Part shown: positions 12,898-18,488 of the stretch, in pieces
Layout: each line of letters opens with the position of its first letter
How positions within the stretch are numbered: the first letter of the stretch is position 1
Assembly (NCBI RefSeq): GCF_001885215.1
Contig: NZ_CP018091.1
Span: forward strand, 620,001 to 684,000
From: Synechococcus sp. SynAce01
GTDB taxonomy: Bacteria; Cyanobacteriota; Cyanobacteriia; PCC-6307; Cyanobiaceae
Direction of reading: 5' to 3'
Length of the DNA stretch: 64,000 nt
Program-made: the position numbers and the translations under genes
Notes under the pieces: model-generated
Seen by the model: the letters and a program-made list of their open reading frames with translations, nothing else
Databases searched by the model: none
Told to the model about the DNA's origin: nothing

Positions 12898-12958
12898 TGA
12901 GCTGGAGCGGGCGAAGCGGAAAACTGATCCGTAGCTGAAGCATAAGCGCGATCGGCAG

Positions 12959-13183
12959 CTAGCCGCCACCGATCTGTCTGTAGCGAATGAGACTGGATTG
13001 TTTCGTGACAAGGCGCGGGGGCTGCCCTTCTTCGCCCTGGAACCGCCCGTTGCGTGGATCTGCGGTGATGAGCCTGACCTCCAATTGTTCCGCCAGTGAA
13101 ACGGAAAGAGCATCATAGGCAGAGAGATTGGCGCGCAAGTCCCAGTTTTGAGCGGTGCCCATCGCCAGCCATGCGTTGATCAT
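12959..13183 (-). pseudogene. PIN-domain (VapC-like) C-terminal fragment
   Basis: The 74-residue frame contains NLSAYDALSVSLAEQLEVRL followed by ITADPRNGRF, which resembles the second half of VapC-type PIN ribonucleases (the ...TAYDAxYVALAExL...LxTxDxRL pattern with two of the four catalytic acids). The first half of the domain, with the N-terminal aspartate and the middle glutamate, is absent. The frame starts with an ATG overlapping the stop of the hydrolase gene at 13180. No antitoxin-like gene is seen upstream. Most likely a broken toxin gene truncated by the neighbouring AT-richer insert; an active short protein is unlikely. Confidence 0.6.
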
Positions 13184-14022
13184 GCCGTCACACGACTGCG
13201 CGCCGATAGATTTGGAGAGGTGAGCTGAAAATCATTTCTATCCACGCAGAAGTTATGTGGTTTCAGAATATGGCTGAATCTGTTCTCTTTTTCCAGCAAA
13301 AAAGCATGTCCACTGCCCGGCAGCAGCACGGTTTGGGAATTCGGCAGATAACGGCCTAATCTGGCCGCCTCTTCTACGGAAGGGAGGAGCCGATCCGCTC
13401 TTGACGCCAAAACCAGAACAGGCTGCTCAATACGCTCAAGAGGCAGTGCCTCTAAATTGAATTGACTGAGAAGAGACAACCGCCAAGCAGCACTGGGAGG
13501 GCTTACTGATTGCATGGCTGCCAACAAATTCCGTTGGCTAAGGATGGAGACTTTTTGTGGCGCAATCAGAAAAGGAAGCAGGCCCAGGCTAGAGAGGCGA
13601 TAAAGCGAACTTGGCAATCGCTGACTGACTGAAGCGCCCCAAGCGATCCAGGGCTGGCGGCTTGCCGAAGAAGCAGGATTGATTAAGATCAGACGATCAC
13701 ATAGGCGCGGAAAATGTGCAGCCAGTTTCAAGGCCAAACAACCGCCAAAAGATTCGCCGCAAAGATAGAGGGGACGCGAGGGAGACCGTTTCTTTTCCCT
13801 GCTGATCAAATTGGCTATCTGCTGGATCAAGCCGTCCCACCCCGTTAGATCGTCTGCGGGGATCGACAAACATCGAATATCAAAGGCAGCTTTCAATCCC
13901 GCCAACTGGGGACGCAACAATTCAGCGCTACCGTCCATCCCTGGCAGAAAGACAAACAGGGGCAAGCTCGGATCAGTGGCTTGGGACGTTAACAGTCGTA
14001 GGGCTTTGGTCTTGATTGACAT
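13180..14022 (-). CDS. Alpha/beta hydrolase resembling the hydrolase half of plant phytyl ester synthases
   Basis: The 280-residue protein reads PLFVFLPGMDGSAELLRPQL, FDIRCLSIPADDLTGWDGL and PLYLCGESFGGCLALKLAAH. I recognise this pattern (FLPGxDG, FDVRCLxIPxxD, GESxGxxLAL) from the esterase/lipase part of plant PES/ELT proteins. Nucleophile elbow GESFGG has Ser91; Asp210 (LASRADRLLP) and His239 (GSGHAF) complete a plausible triad. No signal peptide. It follows a PlsC-like acyltransferase by 19 bases, so the two activities joined in plant PES appear as separate neighbours here. Base composition is visibly AT-richer than neighbours (about 43% GC in 13261-13320). The substrate is unknown; lipid acyl transfer is inferred. 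Confidence 0.8.
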   Translation of the reverse strand: MSIKTKALRLLTSQATDPSLPLFVFLPGMDGSAELLRPQLAGLKAAFDIRCLSIPADDLTGWDGLIQQIANLISREKKRSPSRPLYLCGESFGGCLALKLAAHFPRLCDRLILINPASSASRQPWIAWGASVSQRLPSSLYRLSSLGLLPFLIAPQKVSILSQRNLLAAMQSVSPPSAAWRLSLLSQFNLEALPLERIEQPVLVLASRADRLLPSVEEAARLGRYLPNSQTVLLPGSGHAFLLEKENRFSHILKPHNFCVDRNDFQLTSPNLSARSRVTA

Positions 14023-14041
14023 GCGTTACGGGGATGGATGA

Positions 14042-14788
14042 TTAACAGCGCTGATGCAGCAACCCGCCAATCTGCTCCCAGCACGCCTGGGTTAACTCTT
14101 TAGCCAGCGAACCACCATGTCTGCCGCGATAGTGCTGCCGTAGAGCCTCATTGATAGCAACAGGATAGCCAAAGAGAAGCTGAACGCGGCGATAGACGAT
14201 CGCGGAATGCCAGCCTCCACAGTTGAACAGGGGTTCTGTGGGATCAAACAAGCTGAAAAGCTTGAGCGGTGCGAGGTTATGCCTTTCTTCTTCGGTTGAA
14301 ACGATTGCAACCGGCAGGATGGCCAAATCCTGAACCGGCGCCCTCAAGGCCAGATGGGCAAAACCGCGCTGGAATGGGCTGAGCTGGTTGGCCGCTTTGA
14401 CCTGAACCATCGGCTGGGCGCCCTCGGGAAAAACCCCAACAACCTGCCTTGATTGCAGCAATTCAACGGACTGCTGGAAGAACTGCGTTTGCCTTTTGCG
14501 AGGCGCGTCAAGAGGGAAAGCTCCCATCGCCGAGACCATCTCTCGCAAGACGGGTACCCGACTCATGTAGTAGTGACAGGCAAACCGCACGGGACGATTC
14601 ATGGCTGCCATCAATAAAGGAGCATCAAGCAAACTGCGATGGTTGCTGACAACCAAAATCCTGCCATGAGCTGGAATTCGCTCGTCGTGGTGCTGCGATA
14701 CCCGCGTACCAACAGCACCGAGCAACCTCCTGGAAAGGTGCAAGGGAGCATCCGGGCCCATCCCCGCTGTCAAGCCGCCAAGTCTCAT
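14042..14788 (-). CDS. Lysophospholipid/glycerolipid acyltransferase family protein (PlsC-like)
   Basis: Acyltransferase of the LPLAT fold. The 248-residue protein has block I ILVVSNHRSLLDAPLLM with catalytic His50 and Asp55 (NHx4D) and block III VFPEGAQPM at residues 119-127. No obvious membrane anchor beyond amphipathic segments. It is the first gene of a two-gene minus-strand unit with the PES-like hydrolase. The natural acceptor could be lysophosphatidate, a pigment or a prenyl alcohol; the sequence does not say. Like its neighbour it is less GC-rich than the rest of the window. Confidence 0.82.
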   Translation of the reverse strand: MRLGGLTAGMGPDAPLHLSRRLLGAVGTRVSQHHDERIPAHGRILVVSNHRSLLDAPLLMAAMNRPVRFACHYYMSRVPVLREMVSAMGAFPLDAPRKRQTQFFQQSVELLQSRQVVGVFPEGAQPMVQVKAANQLSPFQRGFAHLALRAPVQDLAILPVAIVSTEEERHNLAPLKLFSLFDPTEPLFNCGGWHSAIVYRRVQLLFGYPVAINEALRQHYRGRHGGSLAKELTQACWEQIGGLLHQRC

Positions 14789-15116
14789 TGGCGCATGGTT
14801 CTGTTGTTACAACTCAAGGCTGGCACAGCAAGGTCCCCAATTTTTGAATTGAATTTCAGCACGATTCAATCATTACCCCCGATTGTTTGCACCTGCACAT
14901 GGCCGAATGACAGGCGTTTAAAATACAATCGACTGCAACACGATTAATCACAGCATAAACGATCGCGACATAAGCGATTGCAGCCCTTGGTGATTTACGG
15001 ATTCGCCTGTATCACTCCCTCTATCCTAAGGCGGCAGCATTGGAAGCGCTGGTTGATCCTGGAAAGGATTGTCTGGTTGCCGCCACCAAGCCGGCCACAG
15101 TGATTCTGTTCTGCAC
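14789..15116. other. AT-rich intergenic region, no gene seen
   Basis: This 328-base gap between the acyltransferase start and the DUF2269-like gene is clearly AT-rich, for example gtttaaaatacaatcgactg near 14917-14936. It should hold the promoter of the acyltransferase/hydrolase pair, read on the minus strand, but I see no well-spaced -35/-10 pair. Several short open frames cross it on the plus strand, without family resemblance. No tRNA or repeat is visible. Confidence 0.6.
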
Positions 15117-15641
15117 TCAGGTCTGGGCTCCCGCAACCCGCTTCCATGGGGTACGGCCCCAGGGCTTGAGAAACGAGATGAACACCACAGCCACCTGCAG
15201 CAGCACCTGGAGGCCAGTGGCCACCAGCCCTTGGAACCAGGTCGTCCAGTAGATCGAATCCGCAGGTATGGCTGGTGCGTTGAGCCCTTCGAGGTAGGCC
15301 GCGTTGCTGTTGAGCCACGGCTCCAACGCCACGGTGCCGAACACGATGAACGACACCGTGAGCAGACCCTTGATCACAACCCACCAGTGTTTGAAATAGC
15401 CCCAGGGCGTCACGGCGCAGAGCAGCAGACCTGTGAGCAGGCTCAGCGAGGCACAGGGGATGAGCACGACGTCATCGATGAACTTGGAGAGATCGGCGAT
15501 CACCACCTGTGCGGCAAAGGCGCGCTGGACCTGGCCGAGCTGCAACAGCACCAGCAGGGCTGCCGTCACGGCCCAGGTCAGGGAGATCACCACATGGGTG
15601 GAGATGATCCAAAACCGACCGGTGACAGACACGGGGCTCAA
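15117..15641 (-). CDS. Four-helix integral membrane protein, DUF2269-like
   Basis: A 174-residue protein with four clear hydrophobic segments: near the N-terminus (WIISTHVVISLTWAVTAALL), the middle (LIPCASLSLLTGLLLCA), then GYFKHWWVVIKGLLTVSFIV, and near the C-terminus (LVATGLQVLLQVAVVFISFL). The KHWWVVIKGLLT pattern is typical of DUF2269-type membrane proteins. No cofactor ligands are obvious apart from His16 and His near WW. Function unknown. It lies 64 bases downstream of the MFS transporter on the same strand. Confidence 0.7.
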   Translation of the reverse strand: MSPVSVTGRFWIISTHVVISLTWAVTAALLVLLQLGQVQRAFAAQVVIADLSKFIDDVVLIPCASLSLLTGLLLCAVTPWGYFKHWWVVIKGLLTVSFIVFGTVALEPWLNSNAAYLEGLNAPAIPADSIYWTTWFQGLVATGLQVLLQVAVVFISFLKPWGRTPWKRVAGAQT

Positions 15642-15705: not shown

Positions 15706-16935
15706 TCAGCGCCGGGGATGGGGGTGGAAGCGCCCCAACTGCCCCACCAGCAGCAGACCCAGCAGGCAGAGGAGCATCATCAGCAGCCAGAGCCCAGCGC
15801 CATGGCCCTGGGAATCGAGCAGCCAGCCCCCGAACAGGGGCGCCACCAGGGCACTGATCGCGAAGCACTGCGAGAACAGAGCCATCGCCATGCCGTGGTG
15901 GACAACCGGCGTCACCTCCACCACCGCTTCGCTGGCGGTGGGCAGGAAGGCCGCCTCAGCGGCCGCGAGGGGAACCTGGGCGGCGATCAGCACGCCCGTG
16001 CTGTGCCAGCCCAGGCTGGAGAGGGCCAGCAAGCCATTGCCGAAGGCGAATCCCACCAGGCTCAGCCCGAGCCCGAACGCCACCGGCAGCCCGGCCAGCC
16101 AGCGACCCAGGGGCCACTGCAGCAACAACAGCAAGCTGAGCTGCAGGCCCATCAACAGGGCACCGGTGCTGCTGGGCAGGGGCGCACGACCAAGGCCGCC
16201 ACGCACCAGATCGAGCGGCAGGGCGCTCTGCAGCAGAACCGCCATGCCGGTGATCAGCACGGTGATCCCCAGCAGCGGCAGCAGCGGCACCACCCAGTGT
16301 TTCCAGCCGATTCGCCGTTCACCGGCGGGCCTTGCTGCCGCGGATGGCAACGGATAACGGAGCAACAAGGTAATCAGCACCACCATGCAGACCGCGTCCA
16401 CCAGGTAGATGCCGCGCAGCCGCTCGCCACTGGCCAGCAGGGCACCGAGCAGCACCCCTGAGGCGATCCCCAGGGCATCAGCGGTGCGCACCAGGGCATA
16501 AGCGCGGCTCGATGGCAGGGGCGGGCAGCTCAGGGGCACGGCCAGCTCGATGGCGGGCCAGTAGATGCCCAAAGACATCCCCAGCAGCATCTGGCCGACC
16601 ACGAAGGCGCCGAGCCCGGTGGCGGTCAACAGACGGGCGTCGGCCAGCAAGGACAACAACGCCGCCAGCAGCACCGGCTTGGTGGTGTTCAGACCCCGGT
16701 CGATCAACAGGCCACTCAGCAGCCGGCCCAGGGTTCCCGCCGCTGCCGACGCCGCCAGACCCAGGCCCACGGCCGTGGCGCTGAAGGCCTCCTGGTGAAA
16801 CACCACGGGGGTGAGATAGAGCACGCCGCCGGCCCCGAAGCTGGCCACCAGGCGAATCACACTCAGTTCGCGCAACGGCGCGGGAAACTGGAGAAACCAG
16901 CTGGGCCGGCTTGCTCCTGTTCGAGGTTGTGTCAA
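15706..16935 (-). CDS. Major facilitator superfamily transporter
   Basis: About 409 residues with twelve predicted membrane spans in two six-helix halves joined by a loop near AARPAGERRIGWKHW. The RxxGRLLSGLLIDRG-like segment GTLGRLLSGLLIDRG in the TM2-TM3 loop is the usual MFS motif A. The TTG at 16935 is the apparent start and overlaps the divergent hydrolase start by a few bases; an internal start is possible. Substrate not predictable; drug/metabolite efflux is only a guess from the fold. Confidence 0.85.
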   Translation of the reverse strand: MTQPRTGASRPSWFLQFPAPLRELSVIRLVASFGAGGVLYLTPVVFHQEAFSATAVGLGLAASAAAGTLGRLLSGLLIDRGLNTTKPVLLAALLSLLADARLLTATGLGAFVVGQMLLGMSLGIYWPAIELAVPLSCPPLPSSRAYALVRTADALGIASGVLLGALLASGERLRGIYLVDAVCMVVLITLLLRYPLPSAAARPAGERRIGWKHWVVPLLPLLGITVLITGMAVLLQSALPLDLVRGGLGRAPLPSSTGALLMGLQLSLLLLLQWPLGRWLAGLPVAFGLGLSLVGFAFGNGLLALSSLGWHSTGVLIAAQVPLAAAEAAFLPTASEAVVEVTPVVHHGMAMALFSQCFAISALVAPLFGGWLLDSQGHGAGLWLLMMLLCLLGLLLVGQLGRFHPHPRR

Positions 16936-18488
16936 ACCGCTGCCGATGGCTGCCCGTCCTGCTTACCAGTGTGCTCGTGGGGGTGGGCAGCCCGGCGATG
17001 GCCAGCGCCCAGCTCAACGTGCGGATCGATGGCTTCACCCTGCCGATCGACCTGCGCCAGCTGCAGGCCTGGAGTCAGGATCCCCGCCGCATCCGCACCG
17101 AACTGGGGGTGTGGCTCGAACTGCTCGATGACCGCAGTCGCCGCGACCTCGTCACCCTGCTGCGCACCCCCCTGCTGCCAGACCGTGGCCTCGCCCTGCA
17201 GCTTCTGCAGAGCTGGGCCGGCGGCCAGGTGCTCGATGAACTCGGCGAACTGCTGCAGACCGATCAGCCCGGCAGCGGCGCCCTGCTGCTGAAGACCCTG
17301 CGCGACCTGCTGCAGAAGCCCGAGCCGGTCACGGTGGTGGATGTGCTTCAGGCGGTACCGACCCAGCAGCTGACCCTGGACCTCGATGGCGTCCTGGCCT
17401 TGGGCGCCGGCTGGCGCAGGCAACTGGAGCAGGAGACGAAGGCCCTGGCGCAGCTGCGGCAGCTGCCGTTGCCGGTTATTCAGGGGGCCACGGCACCGAT
17501 GCGGTTATCGGCCCTGCAGCGCCCAACACGCCCCCGGGCCATCAACCTGGCCGTGGCCCACCGCCGTGAACCGTTGCCGCTGGAGATCTGGGGGGCCAGC
17601 CCATCAAGCCAGCGTTCCTGGGTGCTGTTGATGCATGGTCTGGGCGGCAGCGCCGCCCAATTGCGCTGGATGGCCGAAGGGTTGTCACAGCGCGGCTGGC
17701 CGGTGCTGCTGATGGAGCACCCCGGCAGTGATGAATCAGCGGTGCGGGAGCTACTCGATGGCCTGCGGCCGCCCCCGGGCGCTGAAACCATCCCGGATCG
17801 ACTCGCGGATGTTCAGGCGGTGCTGGCCGCCGAAGCCAAGGGGACCGTGCCGGAGCTGGGCGAATCGGTCGTGCTGATGGGCCATTCCCTCGGTGGCCTG
17901 ACCGCGCTGATGGCGGCAGGACAACGGCCAGCGGCGGGCCTGGAGCAGCGCTGCGAACGGGCCCTCAAGGGTCTTCCCCTGATCAATCTCTCCAGGCTGC
18001 TGCAATGCCAGCTGGCCCAGGTCCCCCTGCCGCCACCCCGGCGTCCCGCCAACCTGGCGGCGGTGGTGAGCATTAACGGTTTCGGCAGCCTGCTCTGGCC
18101 GGACCGGAGCCTGGAGTCCCTGAAGGTGCCGGTGTTGATGGTCGGCGGCAGCCTCGATCTGGTGACGCCGCCGGTGAGCGAACAGCTCGGGCCGTTCCTG
18201 CAGCAGAGCGATCCCCGCAGCCGCCTGGTGGTGGTGGAAGGGGCCAGTCACTTCTCACCGGTGCGGATCGAAACAACCGACGACGCCTTGCTCCGCCTCG
18301 GTGATCGCCTGGTGGGTGAGGAACCCTTCAAGGTTCAGGAGCTGTTGCTCAGCCTCAGCGCCGACTTTCTGTTCGCCCTGGAGACCGACAACAGCGTGCC
18401 GGTGCAGCGCCGTTTTCAGGAGGGCATCGGCTCCTACGTTCTCGACCAGCGCAGCGCCGAGCTCTGGCGCCGGCGACTCAGAAACTGA
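16929..18488 (+). CDS. Secreted alpha/beta hydrolase with DUF1400 domain
   Basis: A 519-residue cyanobacterial protein: signal peptide (VLLTSVLVGVGSPAMASA), then a DUF1400 domain (about 28-150; VRIDGFTLPIDLRQLQAW, LQTDQPGSGALLLKTLRDLL, VDVLQAVP), then an alpha/beta hydrolase with HGLGGSAAQLRW (oxyanion region) and nucleophile elbow GHSLGG around Ser320. A His in EGASHFSP likely completes the triad. PAF-acetylhydrolase/lipase-like by fold; substrate unknown. GTG 16929 is chosen because it precedes the signal peptide; a TTG at 16911 is alternative. Its 3' end overlaps the convergent ABC permease by 11 bases. Confidence 0.85.
   Translation: MSNRCRWLPVLLTSVLVGVGSPAMASAQLNVRIDGFTLPIDLRQLQAWSQDPRRIRTELGVWLELLDDRSRRDLVTLLRTPLLPDRGLALQLLQSWAGGQVLDELGELLQTDQPGSGALLLKTLRDLLQKPEPVTVVDVLQAVPTQQLTLDLDGVLALGAGWRRQLEQETKALAQLRQLPLPVIQGATAPMRLSALQRPTRPRAINLAVAHRREPLPLEIWGASPSSQRSWVLLMHGLGGSAAQLRWMAEGLSQRGWPVLLMEHPGSDESAVRELLDGLRPPPGAETIPDRLADVQAVLAAEAKGTVPELGESVVLMGHSLGGLTALMAAGQRPAAGLEQRCERALKGLPLINLSRLLQCQLAQVPLPPPRRPANLAAVVSINGFGSLLWPDRSLESLKVPVLMVGGSLDLVTPPVSEQLGPFLQQSDPRSRLVVVEGASHFSPVRIETTDDALLRLGDRLVGEEPFKVQELLLSLSADFLFALETDNSVPVQRRFQEGIGSYVLDQRSAELWRRRLRN

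Follow-up and report, generated by a model that had tools for sequence, protein, structure and literature searches.

In this report we focus on two adjacent genes in a 64,000-nucleotide stretch of Synechococcus sp. SynAce01 DNA (contig NZ_CP018091.1, positions 620,001 to 684,000 of the forward strand), hereafter called the window, in which positions are counted from the first nucleotide and whose host genome is a single contig of 2,750,634 bp that is 99.85% complete. The first gene (14042..14788, minus strand) encodes a 248-aa PlsC-type acyltransferase of the LPLAT superfamily, recognized from its open reading frame (ORF), PF01553 domain, motifs and structural model, and the second (13180..14022, minus strand) encodes a 280-aa alpha/beta hydrolase, recognized from its ORF, Pfam match, motifs and model. 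The 19-bp gap between the two ORFs (14023..14041, minus strand) is an operon-like spacing for same-strand genes. An earlier note on this DNA had described adjacent minus-strand acyltransferase and hydrolase ORFs with intact active-site motifs, and this is what lies at the locus. The pair is not a chance arrangement, because both proteins have class-wide orthologs and their adjacency is kept. As argued below, these two genes may be an old cyanobacterial module of ester metabolism, a split counterpart of the plant phytyl ester synthases (PES) with a different class of acyltransferase.

A conserved two-gene unit of cyanobacteria

The first important finding of this study is that the two genes are a conserved cyanobacterial unit. 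Of 388 cyanobacterial genomes surveyed, each at least 90% complete, 191 carried the acyltransferase, 225 the hydrolase and 166 MFAT, a second and different acyltransferase to which we return below; the acyltransferase and the hydrolase occurred together in 187. The earlier note had asked whether the pair recurs in other cyanobacteria and as neighbors, and it does so on both counts: 187 of the 191 genomes with the acyltransferase also have the hydrolase, and in 111 of the 116 pair genomes whose coordinates were compared (out of the 187) the two genes are adjacent, on the same strand and with the acyltransferase first, at a median distance of 59 bp between the matched segments of these 111 pairs. 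A set of 99 genomes that includes the window's own gave the same picture, with the hydrolase beside all 26 strong acyltransferase matches (E < 1e-49) and present alone in three more genomes (G062, G064 and G074). Within the window's own family the distribution of the pair in this set is patchy, being confined to genera g1, g24 and g54.

Named loci extend this view. Our scan covered the best 80 of 417 related stretches, with a query led by the Gloeobacter sequence, and all 80 carry cyanobacterial titles, including two named Gloeobacterales genomes; the acyltransferase of Aphanocapsa lilacina HA4352-LM1 is 97% identical to the Gloeobacter protein. The hydrolase gene lies directly downstream of the acyltransferase gene in 75 of these loci; in three of the remaining five the sequence stops about 150 bases or less from the gene, whereas L159 and L163 extend further. 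The next commonest neighbors, a divergent methionyl-tRNA synthetase gene and a gene encoding a NYN-domain protein, are each found in 50 of the 80 loci; neither was retained as a conserved third gene of the pair, and we read both as its surroundings. A fusion of the two genes, which are separated by 19 bp in the window, was also looked for, and none of the matches listed was long enough to be one. A 506-aa frame in genome G072, which we take to be Gloeobacter violaceus, had appeared to be a candidate and is the hydrolase frame left open across the acyltransferase gene, the latter lying in another frame.

Family relationships of the two proteins

The acyltransferase fits the PlsC/LPAAT superfamily by its PF01553 domain (82.4 bits against a cut-off of 23), its HX4D motif (NHRSLLD, H50-x4-D55) and its FPEG motif at residues 120-123. 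Both motifs are kept as invariant columns in alignments of 24-54 sequences, and the Gloeobacter protein reads SSHRS in place of the SNHRS found in most. Its AlphaFold2 model (mean pLDDT 89.3) has as its nearest solved fold the PlsC of Thermotoga maritima, 5kym (Foldseek E 6.8e-10). The protein nevertheless fails as a PlsC/LPAAT proper: it scores 63.8 bits with the AGP acyltransferase model TIGR00530, 39 bits short of the cut-off of 102.95, and falls below every curated NCBIfam cut-off. Thus, while it has the fold, HX4D and FPEG in common with PlsC/LPAAT enzymes, it differs from the PlsC orthologs found in the same genomes in sequence (25-36% identity over partial lengths) and in its nearly constant association with the hydrolase. 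In a tree that included paralogs, the PlsC group had support of 100/99, and the acyltransferase family, with two changes, had one origin in 68% of bootstrap trees, with weak basal forks and a very long MFAT branch.

The earlier note had also held that the acyltransferase is of another class than that of PES, and this is borne out, since it matches PF01553 alone and shows no PF03982 (DAGAT) match up to an E value of 0.1. By sequence, it is hence neither PES-type nor MFAT. MFAT (Slr2103, A0918), of the DGAT2/PES type, carries GSHNGG and YPGG where the acyltransferase of the pair carries NHRSxxD and FPEG. The two have their broad superfamily in common, a profile comparison giving a probability of 95.5% at 25% identity over 123 columns.

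The hydrolase belongs to the alpha/beta hydrolase superfamily, as indicated by Pfam (Abhydrolase_1, 53.3 bits against a cut-off of 25.8), a conserved Ser-Asp-His set and the predicted fold. Residues S91, D210 and H239 are invariant in alignments of 24-54 sequences and are likely to form the catalytic triad. The protein matches general alpha/beta hydrolase families and reaches no NCBIfam cut-off, and a search of the PDB with its AlphaFold2 model (mean pLDDT 92.3) returned alpha/beta hydrolases and many esterases, the best being 4q3l (E 1.3e-12). It contains FLPGMDG, FDIRCLSIP and GESFGG, which correspond, as the earlier note had stated, to the series FLPGxDG, FDxRCLxIP and GESFGG of plant PES. 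Against a profile of the hydrolase, a plant PES-family stretch scored 172 bits and 30 other cyanobacterial alpha/beta hydrolases at most 48 bits. The plant query was written out after the cyanobacterial alignment had been seen and is not a verified PES sequence, so that we regard a PES-type identity for the hydrolase as a lead.

The comparison with PES highlights similarities and differences. In the plant and algal enzymes PES1 and PES2, of the ELT family, an alpha/beta hydrolase and an LPLAT-superfamily acyltransferase act as one unit, as we propose for the pair. PES joins both parts in a single polypeptide, its acyltransferase being of the DAGAT (PF03982) superfamily, and a lipase activity has been postulated for it (PMC12526585). 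The pair, in contrast, consists of two genes, with the acyltransferase first and of the PlsC (PF01553) class. In a published analysis, MFAT was placed as sister to the acyltransferase half of plant PES (PMC12048435).

Hydrolases that lack the PlsC-type partner

Another significant finding is that, in the 388 genomes, the hydrolase goes with either ACYLTRANSFERASE: PlsC-type or MFAT. All three genes occur in 104 genomes and the pair without MFAT in 83; the hydrolase accompanies MFAT without the PlsC-type gene in 37 and stands alone in one; the PlsC-type gene and MFAT occur without the hydrolase in four; MFAT is alone in 21, and 138 genomes have none of the three. MFAT is thus present in 37 of the 38 genomes that have the hydrolase without the PlsC-type gene, compared with 104 of the 187 that have both. 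The 37 genomes were counted by hand as belonging to 21 genera and nine families, and because they are so spread, the state in which a hydrolase without the PlsC-type gene coexists with MFAT probably arose more than once. That the hydrolase occurs both with the PlsC-type gene and with the PES-type class is our strongest reason for calling the pair PES-like.

We compared 23 loci of such lone hydrolases (20 of 8.5 kb and three of 3.7 kb). Near the hydrolase, neither the PlsC-type nor the MFAT profile gave a match above 40 bits at any of them, so that MFAT is encoded away from the hydrolase at these loci, whereas the acyltransferase of the pair adjoins it. In 15 of the 23, the hydrolase gene adjoins the divergent methionyl-tRNA synthetase gene that is a neighbor in 50 of the 80 pair loci too, across a gap of 385-933 bp with no acyltransferase between them. 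As these lone hydrolases keep this neighbor while no acyltransferase lies between, the loci look like cases in which the PlsC-type gene was lost from its ancestral site. At one locus (L314, genome G265), a stretch of 21 residues that is 81% identical to the acyltransferase lies just upstream of the lone hydrolase and is apparently a relic of the lost partner, to judge by this similarity. Since it was seen at one of 23 loci, we rejected such remnants as a general pattern. The window's own genome also carries an MFAT/DGAT2-type acyltransferase gene, outside the window at G000:C1:699447-700268, and the two classes therefore coexist in it.

A possible role in acyl-plastoquinol metabolism

The reading that we favor, with a probability of about 45%, is that the pair forms an ester module resembling a PES split in two: the PlsC-type enzyme would acylate plastoquinol, and the hydrolase would either cut the ester or supply its acyl group. 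In LPLAT enzymes, the histidine of HX4D deprotonates the hydroxyl of the acceptor, which then attacks the acyl thioester. In the same manner, H50 and D55 would activate the hydroxyl of a lipophilic acceptor, plastoquinol being the best candidate, to which a fatty acid would pass from acyl-ACP or acyl-CoA to give acyl-plastoquinol. The hydrolase, through S91-D210-H239, might cut such esters again as a lipase, in a cycle of synthesis and turnover, or might free acyl groups from membrane lipids to feed the transfer. We lean toward a lipase for the same esters on the basis of the gene distribution, because this role would explain why the hydrolase is kept almost only where either class of acyltransferase is present. 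Where MFAT is present, a lineage could lose the PlsC-type gene, after which the hydrolase would partner MFAT, for which we propose the same class of acceptor and which tracks the same hydrolase. We infer plastoquinol as the most likely acceptor from the co-occurrence with MFAT together with the published lipid data on Gloeobacter; we likewise infer the donor, the direction of the hydrolase and a physical partnership of the two proteins.

In the published data, acyl-plastoquinol depends on MFAT in Synechocystis 6803 and Synechococcus 7002, whose MFAT mutants lose it; S. elongatus PCC 7942 has neither MFAT nor acyl-plastoquinol; and Gloeobacter violaceus 7421, which lacks MFAT, nevertheless produces the lipid, through an enzyme described as under study (PMC12048435). 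Gloeobacter has also been named as a producer of acyl-plastoquinol without slr2103 (PMC12174987). An acyl-plastoquinol lipase (APL) of Synechocystis (Jimbo 2024, as described in PMC11973298) frees plastoquinol from acyl-plastoquinol, and such a hydrolase would fit the second gene of the pair.

Gene content was compared in corresponding genomes. G429 is Synechocystis PCC 6714 (6 kb identical to plasmid NZ_CP007543.1), G208 is Picosynechococcus PCC 7117 (identical to plasmid NZ_CP016478.1), and G089 is an S. elongatus-type genome that we take to be PCC 6301. The G. violaceus genome G072 has the pair, with the acyltransferase matched at G072:C1:2397393-2398037, and no DAGAT (MFAT) match; in its family, f13, the six genomes among the matches listed all have the pair, and no f13 genome is among the MFAT matches listed. 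In G089, acyltransferase, hydrolase and MFAT were all without a match. PCC 6714 and four congeners lack the PlsC-type gene, their nearest matches being distant PlsC paralogs (best E 1.5e-17); the four congeners have the hydrolase and MFAT, and PCC 6714 itself has MFAT. PCC 7117 has MFAT and lacks the PlsC-type gene, and no hydrolase ortholog was found in it or in five congeners (best E 8.7e-14). The distribution of the PlsC-type gene in Gloeobacter, G089, PCC 6714 and PCC 7117 would fit the available lipid data, which cover few strains, three of them represented here by relatives.

The Gloeobacter genome was further compared with G089 for the acyltransferase families PF01553, PF03982, PF03007 and PF03062. 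It has four PF01553 proteins, of which one is the PlsC ortholog (56% identical to that of S. elongatus) and two are 43-44% identical to one S. elongatus protein; the acyltransferase of the pair is the only one without an ortholog in G089, where none exceeds 30% identity to it. A further family of PF01553 proteins with frames of about 460-520 aa, for which we know of no role, is encoded twice in Gloeobacter (G072:C1:3858169 and G072:C1:1222739), in S. elongatus (G089:C1:299399) and in the window's genome (G000:C1:1974239). WS/DGAT (PF03007) gave no match, and as the control gave none either, its absence is not proven.

Several observations weigh against the acyl-plastoquinol reading. The two genes lie apart in five of the 116 genomes compared. 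The two acyltransferases are not simply alternatives, since MFAT accompanies the pair in 104 of its 187 genomes, and MFAT needs no hydrolase, since 21 genomes have it with neither gene of the pair. Among the four genomes with the PlsC-type gene and MFAT but no hydrolase, two have strong matches (G327 and G352) and two weak ones (G206 and G245), and the one hydrolase found alone (G239, a weak match with E 3e-38) is without MFAT. The Fisher p value of 8e-8 from these counts gives too strong a picture, because related genomes were counted separately, and families f31 and f32, in which lone hydrolases occur, are largely MFAT-positive anyway; we place no weight on it. The tree described above does not establish the acyltransferase family as a single clade. 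Strains 6803, 7002 and 7942 are represented by near relatives. According to PMC11973298, Tanikawa 2025 reported two MFAT-lacking producers of acyl-plastoquinol, and the comparison above covers one such producer, Gloeobacter. Finally, an MBOAT protein occurs once in Gloeobacter and is missing from the S. elongatus genome, the one other difference found between them.

The best of the rival explanations is a Lands-type remodeling of membrane lipids, in which a galactolipid or phosphatidylglycerol would lose an acyl chain to the hydrolase and the resulting lyso-lipid would be re-acylated by the PlsC-type enzyme. We consider it unlikely. An acyltransferase of the LPAAT superfamily (PF01553, 82 bits) with a PlsC as its nearest solved fold would suit such a cycle, and monoacylglycerol lipases are among the many esterases in the fold search with the hydrolase, but the window's genome already encodes an ortholog of the widespread PlsC along with another LPAAT-like protein, the acyltransferase scores below the curated AGP model (63.8 against 102.95 bits), and a lyso-lipid cycle leaves unexplained why MFAT is present in 37 of the 38 lone-hydrolase genomes.

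In a second rival explanation, the pair would acylate another lipophilic alcohol, such as phytol, a carotenoid or carotenoid glycoside, or a hopanoid, with the hydrolase recycling the ester. Plant PES produces phytyl esters as well as triacylglycerol, and the acceptors of MFAT are diacylglycerol, phytol and plastoquinol (PMC12048435), which together with a hydrolase that tracks MFAT lends this explanation some weight. It is nonetheless quite unlikely, given that Gloeobacter, with the pair but without MFAT, makes acyl-plastoquinol while its triacylglycerol and phytyl ester are near background (PMC12048435), and that the conserved neighbors of the pair, as far as examined, are not pigment genes. 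The Gloeobacter MBOAT protein is, to judge from its size and family, presumably an AlgI-like polysaccharide O-acetyltransferase, which counts against a role in lipid acylation. It is very unlikely that the Gloeobacter enzyme is something else, such as this protein or an acyl-transferring hydrolase, and that the pair has an unrelated role, even though MBOAT separates Gloeobacter from S. elongatus and the search covered four families only, because a related MBOAT (38% identity over 342 residues) is present in PCC 7117, whose relative PCC 7002 loses acyl-plastoquinol without MFAT (PMC12048435).

A fuller version of the acyl-plastoquinol reading is possible but doubtful. In this version, Gloeobacter and many other cyanobacteria would use the PlsC-type enzyme as their MFAT-independent plastoquinol acyltransferase and the hydrolase as its matching acyl-plastoquinol lipase, in an older cycle whose synthase step MFAT later took over, plants having then fused an MFAT-type acyltransferase with the same hydrolase to give PES. 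The subject matters because the photosynthetic electron carrier is sequestered in acyl-plastoquinol, a neutral lipid discovered recently. Our analysis names one Gloeobacter gene (G072:C1:2397393-2398037), with its hydrolase partner, as candidates for its metabolism, and the 83 of 388 genomes that have the pair without MFAT are further genomes bearing on them. It also leads to the proposal that one hydrolase may have come to work with acyltransferases of two classes, one of which was later fused to it in plants to give PES.

No description of the pair was found among the titles and abstract openings of accessible papers on phytyl ester synthase and acyl-plastoquinol, and the sole mention of PlsC in PMC12048435 is an old annotation of A0918. 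Two scans of viral contigs gave no relative, and a promoter and terminator scan of window positions 12900-15200 gave nothing exceeding shuffled sequences. Among the surrounding genes, one on the opposite strand, some 2 kb away from the pair (16911-18488, plus strand), encodes another alpha/beta hydrolase, which has a DUF1400 domain (PF07176) and was not matched by the profile of the pair's hydrolase. Upstream of the pair are a small protein without a clear family (15117-15641, minus strand) and an MFS transporter (15706-16935, minus strand). A 74-aa ORF (12959-13183, minus strand) overlaps the stop codon of the hydrolase gene and has a weak, sub-cut-off match to the C-terminal portion of a PIN domain (PF01850, 17.1 bits), which suggests that it is perhaps a VapC-like remnant.

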